Source: Thermoleophilia bacterium (GTDB taxonomy: Bacteria > Actinomycetota > Thermoleophilia > BMS3ABIN01). Taken from it: a stretch of DNA of 37,884 nt. The position numbers and the translations under genes were made by a program. The notes beneath the pieces were generated by a model. That model worked only from the letters and a program-made list of their open reading frames with translations, searched no databases and was not told the origin of the DNA. Below are positions 13,175 to 22,947 of the stretch, piece by piece. Location: positions 1 to 37,884 of the forward strand of contig JACUUL010000017.1 of the NCBI GenBank assembly GCA_014859345.1, read 5' to 3'. Positions within the stretch are counted from its first letter, which is position 1; each line of letters begins with the position of its first letter.

Positions 13175-14287
13175 ATGCCTCGTGGTGGGGGATCGGCACC
13201 TTCCCGGGCAAATGTCAAGCTCACATTGGAGGAAGTTATTTTTACAGTATTCCTTGAACAGATAGGAAAACTGAAATCAACTTTCCTGGCCAAGCTTCTT
13301 CTTTTTCTTCCCGTAATTCCCCTTTCACTCCTAATTATCTCCTCCGCGGCGGCTACGCCCGCCGGAGAGCTGGATGGCCAGATCAGCGGCCTCGAGGCGC
13401 GCTCCGGCGTGCTCGACGACAGCTACCGCCAGGCGCTCGCCGACATGGTAGCTGTCGACAGCGAGGTCAACCACCATACCGCTTCAATCCAGCAAGCCGG
13501 CCAGCGCCGTGAAGAAGTCCAGGCCGAACTCGAGTCTGAAGAGCAGTATCTCGAAGAAGTCCAGGCTCAACTGGCCCGCCAGCAGAGCCTGCTGGAAAAG
13601 AGGCTCCAGGGCGCCTACAAGAGCGACGAAATGGGGTTTCTGGCTGTCGTCATGAGCGCCGGTGATTTCAGCGATTTTCTGAACCGGATGGATCTGATAA
13701 GCCTGATAGCGGAGGAAGACCGTAGGCTGATTCTATCCATTGAGGAGTCCCGGACAGCCGTGGAAGCAAGGCTGGTCTCTCTCTCGGATAAAAAGCAGGA
13801 GCTGGCGTCACTTATCGAAGAGTTGGGTTCGGCGCAGGACAGCCTCCTTGCTGCGCAGGCTGAGCAGCAGCGGGTCGTCTCCGGTATAGAGGCGCAGATG
13901 CGGGATAACCAGGATCAGCTGGCTCAGCTGCAGACGGAAGCGGCGGCGATTCAGTCAAGAATGAGCCAGATCCAGAGCAATTCAGCGCCCTCCGGCGGCG
14001 GCGGAGGCTATGCTCCTCCCCCTTCAGGCGGCGGCACTCATAACATGACGGCCACCGCTTACTGCCTGCAGGGCACCACCGCCACAGGCATGCAGGCTGG
14101 CCGGGGCGTAATAGCGGTAGACCCGGGGGTTATTCGCCTGGGTAGCCGAGTGCATGTCTCCGGCTATGGCGATGCGATCGCCGCCGATACCGGCGGAGCC
14201 ATCAGGGGTAACAAGATCGATGTCTGGCTGCCCTGCGGCGAGGCGATCGCCTGGGGCGTGCGCACGGTGACTGTCACAGTTTATTAA
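13175..14287 (+). CDS. Exported coiled-coil / 3D-domain cell-wall protein
   Basis: Up to 370 residues. A signal peptide is formed by KSTFLAKLLLFLPVIPLSLL and an AAAT-type cleavage region (about 35-62). A long Glu/Gln/Ala-rich coiled coil (65-280) resembles the CwlO/PcsB-type N-terminal module. A Gly/Pro-rich linker (about 280-295) leads to a C-terminal 3D domain (so named for three conserved Asp): MTATAYC, VIAVDPGVIRLGSRVHVSGYG, AADTGGAIRGNKIDVW. Such domains occur in Rpf/MltA-type wall lytic enzymes. The start is uncertain: residues before the signal peptide look non-coding, and GGAGGAAG at about 13229 suggests initiation just downstream at a rare codon. It is likely secreted and active in peptidoglycan remodelling. 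Confidence 0.85.
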   Translation: MPRGGGSAPSRANVKLTLEEVIFTVFLEQIGKLKSTFLAKLLLFLPVIPLSLLIISSAAATPAGELDGQISGLEARSGVLDDSYRQALADMVAVDSEVNHHTASIQQAGQRREEVQAELESEEQYLEEVQAQLARQQSLLEKRLQGAYKSDEMGFLAVVMSAGDFSDFLNRMDLISLIAEEDRRLILSIEESRTAVEARLVSLSDKKQELASLIEELGSAQDSLLAAQAEQQRVVSGIEAQMRDNQDQLAQLQTEAAAIQSRMSQIQSNSAPSGGGGGYAPPPSGGGTHNMTATAYCLQGTTATGMQAGRGVIAVDPGVIRLGSRVHVSGYGDAIAADTGGAIRGNKIDVWLPCGEAIAWGVRTVTVTVY

Positions 14288-14431: not shown

Positions 14432-15076
14432 GTGAAAGCGGAACCAGTGGAAAAACTTCATCGCTCCGCGCTGCTTAAAAAGGGCGTGCGGCTCGAATAC
14501 TTCACTGTCGGCTACAATGTCATCGAGGGTTTTATCGCCGTGGCGGCGGGCGTCGTTGCGGGCAGCATAGCGCTGGTGGGGTTCGGCCTGGACAGCTTCA
14601 TCGAAGTAGCCGCCGGAACCGCCGTGCTCTGGAGGCTGAAGCGGGAGCTCAAGCCCCGGTCCGGCGCGGCGGAGGCCGGCCACGAAGCCCGGGAAAAAAA
14701 GGCCCTGTTTATCGTGGGAATCACCTTTTTCGTTCTGGCTCTATACATACTGCTGGAAGCCGGGTATAACTTGATAACGGGACACGAGGCTGCCGAAAGC
14801 ATGCCAGGCATCGTGCTGGCGGCGGTTTCCCTGGTCATAATGCCGGCCCTGGCTTTTTTAAAACAGCGGACGGGCCGCGCGCTTGGCAGCAGGGCGCTGC
14901 AGGCCGATGCTGTCGAGACATGGATGTGTTCATATCTTTCGCTGGTGCTGCTGGCGGGTCTGGTGCTAAACGCGGCGCTGGGATGGTCCTGGGCCGATCC
15001 GGCCGCGGCGCTGGCCATGCTGCCGCTGGTGATCCGTGAGGGTTTCGAGGCAATCAGGGAGGCCAGGGAGGAATGA
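14432..15076 (+). CDS. Short cation diffusion facilitator-like transporter
   Basis: 214 residues from GTG 14432 with ACGGAG seven bases ahead. It has about five to six membrane segments and CDF-family blocks GSIALVGFGLDSFIEVAAG and ALQADAVETWMCSY. The metal-site pattern is atypical: the usual HxxxD of helix 2 appears as GFGLDSFIE and that of helix 5 as DAVETW. The cytoplasmic C-terminal domain of full-length CDF proteins is absent. It is followed after 10 bases by a canonical CDF gene, so the pair is probably co-transcribed. Substrate is unknown; divalent metals are likely. Confidence 0.82.
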   Translation: MKAEPVEKLHRSALLKKGVRLEYFTVGYNVIEGFIAVAAGVVAGSIALVGFGLDSFIEVAAGTAVLWRLKRELKPRSGAAEAGHEAREKKALFIVGITFFVLALYILLEAGYNLITGHEAAESMPGIVLAAVSLVIMPALAFLKQRTGRALGSRALQADAVETWMCSYLSLVLLAGLVLNAALGWSWADPAAALAMLPLVIREGFEAIREAREE

Positions 15077-15086
15077 GAGGAAGAAG

Positions 15087-16061
15087 ATGAGCAGCCACAA
15101 CCATGGCGGCCAGGCGGGCCATGCCGGTCATTCCCACGGTCTCAACCTGTCCCGTCGCCTTGGCATAGTGCCCGGCTTGATCGCCGGCATCGCGCTGAAT
15201 CTGGTCATCGTGGTTATCCAGATCATTGCCGGCATAATCGCCGGCAGCCTGGCCCTGATCAGCGACGCCCTGCATAGCGCCACGGACATCTCGGCGCTCG
15301 CCATCACCTGGTTCGCGCTGGCGCAGGCCAAAAAACCGCCCTCGGCCTTCAAGACATTCGGATATCACCGCACCGGCATCCTCACCGCGCTCGTCAATTC
15401 GCTGGTGCTGGTGCTGGTTACCCTGTGGATCTTCTACGAGGCATACCAGCGGTTACTGGATCCGCAGCCTGTCGGCGGAACACTCGTATTGATAGCCGCG
15501 ATCGTTGCCCTCGCAGCCAACCTGCTCATTGTCTATTTTCTGCACGGCAGGGCAGAAGAGGACCTCAATATCCGCAGCGCCGTGCTCCACCTGCTGGGCG
15601 ACGCCGCCGCGTCCGCTGCCGTGATCGTAGCGGGCCTTGTGATTATAATTACCGGATGGTACCCGGCCGACCCCCTGGTAAGCGTGCTTCTGGGTCTCGC
15701 GATCCTCTGGGGCGCCTGGCGGATCATCAGGGAGACACTGGAAATACTCCTGGAGGCGTCCCCCCGCACCGTGGATGTGGACAAGGCAGTCGAAGCGATG
15801 ATACGGGAAGAAGGCGTGCTGGGCGTCCACGACATGCACGTCTGGACCCTGGGCTCAGGCATCTACGCGCTCAGCTGCCACATCCTCATCGAGGACATCA
15901 GGGTGAGCGAGAGCAGCCGCATCATCAGGAATTTAAAACACATGCTCAGATGTGACTTCCATATCACCCACTCCACCATCGAGGTGGAATCTGTGTCGTG
16001 TAATGTCGAGGGGCCTTACTGCCAGATCAGCGACCACCATCTGATCGAACCCTGCGACTAA
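15087..16061 (+). CDS. CzcD-type cation diffusion facilitator
   Basis: 324 residues from ATG 15087 (GAGAGGAAGAAG upstream). A His-rich N-terminus (SSHNHGGQAGHAGHSHG) typical of zinc carriers precedes six membrane helices. The metal motifs are intact: LISDALHSATD in helix 2 and LHLLGDAAASA in helix 5 (HxxxD in each). The C-terminal cytoplasmic domain includes HDMHVWTLGSG and IRNLKHML. Members export zinc, cadmium or cobalt by proton antiport. The extreme C-terminus is Cys/His-rich (SCNVEGPYC, DHH). Confidence 0.94.
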   Translation: MSSHNHGGQAGHAGHSHGLNLSRRLGIVPGLIAGIALNLVIVVIQIIAGIIAGSLALISDALHSATDISALAITWFALAQAKKPPSAFKTFGYHRTGILTALVNSLVLVLVTLWIFYEAYQRLLDPQPVGGTLVLIAAIVALAANLLIVYFLHGRAEEDLNIRSAVLHLLGDAAASAAVIVAGLVIIITGWYPADPLVSVLLGLAILWGAWRIIRETLEILLEASPRTVDVDKAVEAMIREEGVLGVHDMHVWTLGSGIYALSCHILIEDIRVSESSRIIRNLKHMLRCDFHITHSTIEVESVSCNVEGPYCQISDHHLIEPCD

Positions 16062-16129: not shown

Positions 16130-16666
16130 ATGGCTGTCAAGAAGAAAAAGTCTCGAAACAATAAGCGGAAAGAATCCTCCCAGAAAAGCAATTCCCGCCG
16201 GCCCTCCGGGTTTCTGCTGGCCATATTGATCATCGCGATCGTAGGCCTGGGCGCGGGAATCACGGCAGCCGTCATGGCAAGCAGCGGCGGCAACGGCGGC
16301 TCGGACGGATCCGGCATCAAGATTCCTGATTACGCCTATTCCCCCCAGGCGCCCAAGGGAGCGGACAAGGCCTACCAGTTCGCGGTTGACCATCCTGAAT
16401 ACCTGGCGGCAGTGCCCTGCTACTGCGGGTGCGGCGACGATCGTTTTGGCCATGTCAGCAATCTGGATTGTTTCGTGAAGTCGAGGAATGGCGACGATGT
16501 GCTGTACGACGACCATGCCTTCGGCTGACCCTTATGAGTGGATATCGCGCTGGACGTGATCCGGCTGAAGGATAATGGCAAGGATATAAAGGAGATCCGG
16601 GAGTGGATCGAAGAGGAGTATTCGAAGCTGGGATATCCAGCGACTGACACGCCTCCGGTGGAGTAG
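16130..16666 (+). CDS. PCYCGC-motif protein with predicted UxxU selenocysteines
   Basis: 178 residues if two in-frame TGA codons are read through. Residues 1-22 are Lys/Arg-rich, a single membrane anchor follows (about 27-48), then the soluble domain carries VPCYCGCGDDRFGHVSNLDC, the hallmark of the PCYCGC-motif family. The frame meets TGA at 16526-16528 (codon 133) and 16535-16537 (codon 136) and continues as VDIALDVIRLKDNGKDIKEI and a normal family C-terminus to TAG. In relatives both positions are Cys, in a DDH...CxxC context. Both TGAs therefore fall exactly on a CxxC pair, making UxxU. A hairpin at 16540-16562 could serve as a SECIS element. A TAAAAT box nine bases before the ATG suggests a leaderless mRNA. 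The family function is unknown; a thiol/selenol redox or metal-handling role is inferred. Confidence 0.82.
16540..16562 (+). promoter_or_regulatory. Candidate bacterial SECIS hairpin
   Basis: GGAT pairs with ATCC at the base, then A-T, a bulged T (16545) and C-G, G-C pairs close a 7-base loop CGCTGGA (16548-16554); G16558 is also bulged. A bulged U below a two-pair mini-stem and a G-containing apical loop is the layout recognised by SelB in E. coli. The loop starts 20 bases after the first TGA and 11 after the second. The folding is by eye. Confidence 0.45.
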
Positions 16667-16691
16667 GCAAACAACTCCTTGAGATAAGAAG

Positions 16692-16711
16692 GCCCCCGGT
16701 CCGGGGGCTTT
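16692..16711. terminator. Terminator shared by the PCYCGC gene and ligA
   Basis: GCCCCC (16692-16697) pairs with GGGGGC (16703-16708), followed by TTTT on the + strand. It lies 25 bases past the TAG of the selenoprotein candidate and at the very end of convergent ligA, so it serves the + transcript and possibly both. Confidence 0.75.
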
Positions 16712-18820
<2,109 letters not shown>

Positions 18821-22740: not shown

Positions 22741-22947
22741 CAAAAATCTCCCCGCGAAGCGAAAGGGAGATGTGCGCACCCGGCCGCCACCTTCGCGCCT
22801 TCTTGGCGAACGCCAGCGTCGATGCATATTCTCCTTTCCAAAAACGGGAGGCCTGACCGTTTCCAGTCAAACCCTGTCGGCGCTTACCCATAGCTTCGTT
22901 CTAAAGCCTTAGATGCAAGAGCTCGGAGAACTATTATGTAATTTGAG
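22741..22947 (-). ncRNA. Moco-type riboswitch candidate with terminator
   Basis: The - strand leader of mobAB has a closing stem TTCTCC (22930-22925) with GGAGAA (22834-22829). Inside it are CTCCGAGC at the 5' side and GGAAAC...CCTCCCG...GGAAAGGAG at the 3' side, elements I associate with the Moco RNA motif. Downstream is an intrinsic terminator, ATCTCCC (22771-22765) with GGGAGAT (22752-22746), followed by TTTTTG. The AAAGGAGA of the closing stem is also almost complementary to the TCTCCCTTT of the terminator, so the two structures exclude each other. Formation of the closing stem would free the terminator and switch the Moco genes off. The class assignment rests on memory of the consensus; the terminator and the competing pairing are directly visible. 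Confidence 0.6.
22746..22771 (-). terminator. Attenuator of the Moco operon
   Basis: A seven-pair stem (ATCTCCC/GGGAGAT), 12-base loop and T run, about 30 bases before the mobAB ATG. A factor-independent terminator placed before rather than after the operon implies conditional read-through. Confidence 0.8.

Follow-up and report, generated by a model that had tools for sequence, protein, structure and literature searches.

A membrane-anchored protein of the PCYCGC family in a Thermoleophilia bacterium is very probably produced by decoding two in-frame UGA codons as selenocysteine (Sec), with one downstream hairpin acting as the SECIS of both; we put the probability of this reading, SECIS account included, at about 0.88. 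The gene lies in a stretch of 37,884 nucleotides (hereafter the window; Table 1) from a genome of 2.08 Mb. Its read-through product has the form MAVKKKKS...PCYCGCG...DDHAFG-U-PL-U-VDIALDV...TPPVE, and 6 nt lie between the two UGA codons. Re-reading the sequence returned the same frame, the same two TGA positions and the same terminal TAG as an earlier note on this DNA had given.

Table 1. Features at and around the predicted selenoprotein gene (positions in the window)
Feature	Position	Strand	Remarks
3D-domain / PcsB coiled-coil cell-wall protein	13175..14287	+	conserved upstream syntenic marker; outside the system
Second, shorter CDF-family membrane protein	14432..15076	+	same strand as the selenoprotein gene
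CDF cation-efflux transporter, C-terminal dimerisation domain	15036..16061	+	directly upstream of the selenoprotein gene
PCYCGC-family gene, predicted selenoprotein	16130..16666	+	178 aa with predicted Sec133 and Sec136 (UxxU); start ATG at 16130, stop TAG 16664-16666
Probable N-terminal membrane segment, about residues 28-50	16211..16279	+	sequence; Lys/Arg-rich stretch before it
PCYCGC motif, residues 96-101	16415..16432	+	sequence and alignment
UGA codon 1, predicted Sec133	16526..16528	+	sequence and recurrence in relatives
UGA codon 2, predicted Sec136	16535..16537	+	sequence and recurrence in relatives
SECIS-like hairpin	16549..16565	+	stem 16549-16554/16560-16565, loop CGUGA 16555-16559; covariation, fold, synonymous suppression
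LigA-like DNA ligase	16712..18811	-	conserved downstream syntenic marker; outside the system

Homology extends across both UGAs, since the 178-aa read-through product matches the PF13798 PCYCGC profile over residues 79–175 (93 bits, E 2.2e-26; cut-off 25 bits); the family C-terminus following the TGAs, previously described as intact, is indeed matched through residue 175. The NF041379 CYCXC (seleno)protein model (OS_HP4) scored 73.8 bits, under its 90-bit equivalog cut-off. Across 30 aligned relatives, the invariant columns were C97, C99, C101, C114, H129, C/U133 and C/U136; the columns of the UGAs exchanged Cys and Sec and held nothing else, so that the TGAs, as had been proposed, take the place of both Cys in the C-terminal CxxC motif of the family. 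Cys97, 99, 101 and 114, His129, Sec133 and Sec136 are conserved candidate ligands. The Lys/Arg-rich N-terminus that precedes the membrane segment suggests, by the positive-inside rule, that the Cys/Sec domain should face outward, outside the membrane. Residues 66–178 were modelled at high confidence (pLDDT 88–98, in blocks of ten), and a PDB sequence search with the protein returned no homologue.

The double-UGA arrangement is recurrent. All 19 genomes of the Thermoleophilia order carry the PCYCGC family and selA, and translation of all copies revealed 12 distinct UxxU genes in 11 of these genomes, spanning four genera (g1, g2, g3 and g5), together with 13 UxxC genes and CxxC paralogues; the host genome itself has one UxxU, one UxxC and two CxxC copies. 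Loci known from named records partly duplicate the same genomes and were left out as independent counts. TGA stands at the same two codons in the 12 UxxU genes, and many UxxC genes have it at the first of these codons alone, a recurrence that bears out the claim that the two TGAs are beyond chance. With 12 UxxU genes in 11/19 genomes, beside UxxC and CxxC relatives, we conclude, on comparative grounds, that the UxxU frame is no pseudogene or error. On the tree, the UxxU label requires about four changes, and well supported branches make at least two of them unavoidable. In one sister pair, supported at 100/100, the second position is U in the second copy of L046 and C in the second copy of L037; one genome thus has UxxU where the other has UxxC, which we read as a recent Sec/Cys exchange at that position. 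In both of these loci, as in L073 and L086, a tandem second PCYCGC selenoprotein gene directly follows the first. The UxxC copy of the host genome (G000:C105, L059:114-371, minus strand) lies near a contig end and has a possible GCAC/GUGC hairpin.

Outside the order, sampling detected one UxxC gene among 399 genomes of the class and no double TGA among 397 genomes of the phylum Actinomycetota; among 400 genomes of Chloroflexota, UxxC was found and a double TGA was not. A UxxC gene from another family of the class (L053:337-870, plus strand) has a short C-terminal part and ends soon past the motif. UxxC also occurs in Bacillaceae, Gemmatimonadales and Methylomirabilota records; selA was found in the checked UxxC-bearing Bacillaceae, Gemmatimonadales and Chloroflexota genomes, and was not found in the checked Methylomirabilota record (1.7 Mb). 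Bacillus sp. EB01 and Neobacillus notoginsengisoli (L132, L134) hold UxxC PCYCGC tandem pairs, both with selA. A single-protein search of genome contigs yielded no relative, whereas the alignment-based search did find relatives. On plasmids the only PCYCGC matches were below 60% identity and mostly from Bacillota.

The genes whose absence the earlier note had named as telling against Sec are all present: the host genome carries tRNA-Sec (TCA anticodon), selB and selA on the same contig, and selD as well. An in-frame TGA, the only one in selD (G000:C13:13022-13954; L021/L063), falls inside the match, suggesting that SelD of this genome is probably itself a selenoprotein.

Selection on the nucleotide sequence downstream of the UGAs differs between the hairpin region and what lies beyond it. 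Beyond it, pN was 0.35 against a pS of 0.68, indicating that protein-level selection acts downstream of the UGAs. At codons 8–13 after UGA1, pS collapsed to 0.05 (0.08 in UxxU genes alone, 0.57 in CxxC paralogues) and regained approximately 0.65 by codons 14–19, within the surrounding range of about 0.65–0.7. The transcript of this region can form the hairpin GCUGGA-CGUGA-UCCGGC, 26 nt past UGA1 and 17 nt past UGA2. Across 20 UGA genes, 97% of cells were paired (with a seventh, outer pair counted) and 12 two-sided changes were observed, compared with a shuffled mean of 3.6 and none as high in 500 shuffles; sliding the hairpin along the alignment gave nothing comparable. RNAalifold recovered the hairpin unaided. 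The pair 16549–16565 is A-U, U-A, U-G or G-C depending on the clade; the covariation at pair 29-35 may represent one evolutionary event. Published rules for bacterial SECIS ask for a G in the first two loop positions, a spacing of 16–37 nt and an MFE of at most -7.5, and the hairpin agrees with them: its 5-nt loop has G second with U after it, both spacings are in range, and the fold energy of 16538–16573 is -9.8 kcal/mol. For the single window sequence, the energy was unexceptional relative to shuffles (z -0.75), and the argument for the hairpin is a comparative one.

The conserved hairpin is not the one proposed by the earlier note. The latter, at 16540–16562, resembles the MFE structure of the single window sequence with the UGAs included, but only 68% of its cells pair and it shows no two-sided changes, and we rejected it as a conserved SECIS. 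An alternative GCAC/GUGC hairpin lacked two-sided changes in the main set and was also discarded; four divergent UxxC paralogues (L035, L039, L054 and L059), which do not form the 16549–16565 hairpin, keep this alternative, and it may be their SECIS. Rfam gave no match at the selenoprotein locus.

The complete machinery, UxxU in four genera, Cys in the paralogues and a covarying hairpin with synonymous suppression uphold the reading of both UGAs as Sec, and we consider Sec at both positions 133 and 136 very highly probable. In the proposed mechanism, the SelA/SelB/SelD/tRNA-Sec system would decode both in-frame UGAs in the UxxU protein, and the hairpin, lying within 16–37 nt of both codons, would recruit SelB with Sec-tRNA for each. 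Given Sec at both positions, a single SECIS is the very likely arrangement, on the basis of one 6-codon synonymous collapse that forms a covarying hairpin at suitable distance from either codon. A separate recoding signal for each UGA, or decoding of UGA1 through this hairpin and of UGA2 through something else, would accommodate the UGA2 spacing, which is close to the short end of the allowed range. We regard it as unlikely: the UxxU genes have a single synonymous-rate minimum (codons 5–13 after UGA1), an alifold of -30..+105 adds to the hairpin just a 4-bp helix, and in the UxxC orthologues this hairpin recurs at an identical position. Termination at Sec codons occurs under selenium shortage, and a mechanical listing of ORFs does return a 132-aa frame ending at 16528, as expected if UGA1 were an ordinary stop or the gene a pseudogene or a product of sequencing error. 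Such a 132-aa protein as the true product is nevertheless very improbable in view of identical TGAs in separate assemblies from four genera, purifying selection downstream and the conserved hairpin; leaky termination at UGA1 is possible as a by-product. Reassignment of UGA to Trp or Cys in the host genome would also leave the frame open once TGA is read through, but we give it almost no weight, as the residue replaced is always Cys and a full Sec system is present. Moreover, 14 of the 29 window genes use TGA as their normal stop, and on this ground we reject a genome-wide code change.

In most genomes of the clade, the gene sits between the 3D-domain gene and ligA. A CDF gene immediately precedes 11 of the 12 UxxU genes (all 11 first copies, the twelfth being a tandem copy) and 0 of 7 syntenic UxxC genes, an association that is phylogenetically non-independent, the syntenic UxxC set consisting of one genus and one relative. 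The CDF protein is nearest to the zinc transporters ZnT8 and ZitB. Several of these operons begin with an ArsR/SmtB-type regulator, nearest by sequence to SmtB and CadC and carrying ELCVCDIA; the window's own genome has no ArsR gene at this place. Just past the selenoprotein gene, at 16690–16712, the window shows an intrinsic-terminator-like GCCCCCGG/CCGGGGGC hairpin with a T run, and a Moco/tungsten riboswitch (RF01055) is found at 22815–22940 on the minus strand. In other phyla, the neighbours of the family include HMA-domain, P-type ATPase, cupredoxin/COX2-like and Fer4_5 proteins. At loci from Chloroflexota, a Methanosarcinales archaeon and a Bacillaceae (L093, L097, L124, L134), a Fer4_5 membrane protein is encoded close to the PCYCGC gene, with cupredoxin/COX2-like proteins also nearby at the Chloroflexota loci; PCYCGC and Fer4_5 genes possibly form a wider system.

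From the gene context we tentatively propose that the protein is an extracytoplasmic di-selenol handling soft metal ions and tied to metal export. The di-selenol, together with CxCxC, Cys114 and His129, would constitute a soft-metal ligand outside the membrane, and this domain would receive or detoxify Zn/Cd/Pb-type ions that leave the cell through the neighbouring CDF pump. A fuller and rather speculative version is a selenium-dependent metal module, in which the last gene of a Zn/Cd-type CDF operon would supply an extracytoplasmic di-selenol protein to take up the exported soft metal or hand it on, one SECIS would decode both UGAs, and the second Sec would accompany the link to the pump and be missing from syntenic orthologues that have no such pump. 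In the main rival reading, about as probable as the metal role, the protein, with Sec at both UGAs all the same, would be a thiol/selenol-disulfide oxidoreductase engaged in electron transfer of a CcmH-, Dsb- or Trx-like kind outside the membrane, its UxxU cycling via a diselenide; this opposes the functional part only and leaves Sec decoding untouched. A redox function is ascribed to most UxxC/UxxU selenoproteins (PMC9312934, PMC13188914), and the Fer4_5 and cupredoxin/COX2-like neighbours in other phyla point the same way, as does the best match of a PDB fold search, the CcmH periplasmic domain. That match is insignificant, like all others (E 3.4, probability 0.21), and a CcmH profile is absent among the protein's Pfam matches. 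The Zn/Cd-type efflux operon of the clade, and the HMA-domain and P-type ATPase genes nearby elsewhere, also argue against an oxidoreductase, which we hold as a tentative possibility.

The PCYCGC family is already known to contain a selenoprotein, OS_HP4/CYCXC (NF041379, under PF13798), which shares the domain and carries Sec in place of the first Cys of the C-terminal motif; it is listed as UxxC with a single Sec (PMC13188914, PMC9312934), whereas the window protein is UxxU with two. The suggestion that a di-selenol version is little described therefore stands for UxxU, of which these two reviews give no record in the family, and fails for selenoprotein members as such, since UxxC ones are listed there. 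We conclude that UxxU is a new form of PCYCGC selenoprotein, the UxxC form being already known. The PF13798 PCYCGC lipoproteins are surface-anchored and of unknown function (PMC13068155). Those of Bacillota and Chloroflexota have the same Cys pattern and domain as the window protein; they are mostly CxxC, and in Bacillota a lipoprotein anchor takes the place of the transmembrane helix. In the loci read, the Bacillota and Chloroflexota genes had no CDF operon beside them. Two Sec separated by two residues also occur in other families (Prx-like; the metal-binding protein/putative mercuric reductase NF041115; FmdB-type), which are set apart from the window protein by their listed domains. The clade's operon resembles SmtB/CadC-regulated CDF efflux operons in combining an ArsR/SmtB-type regulator with a CDF exporter, but adds a di-selenol membrane protein as its last gene.

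This gene provides a natural case of two Sec codons with apparently one covarying SECIS at two spacings, for which the syntenic UxxC orthologues and CxxC paralogues are built-in controls. The placement of a di-selenol in a metal-efflux operon raises a possible role of Sec as a metal ligand, a question left open by a review of the field (PMC13188914), and opens a testable route to the function of this widespread family.
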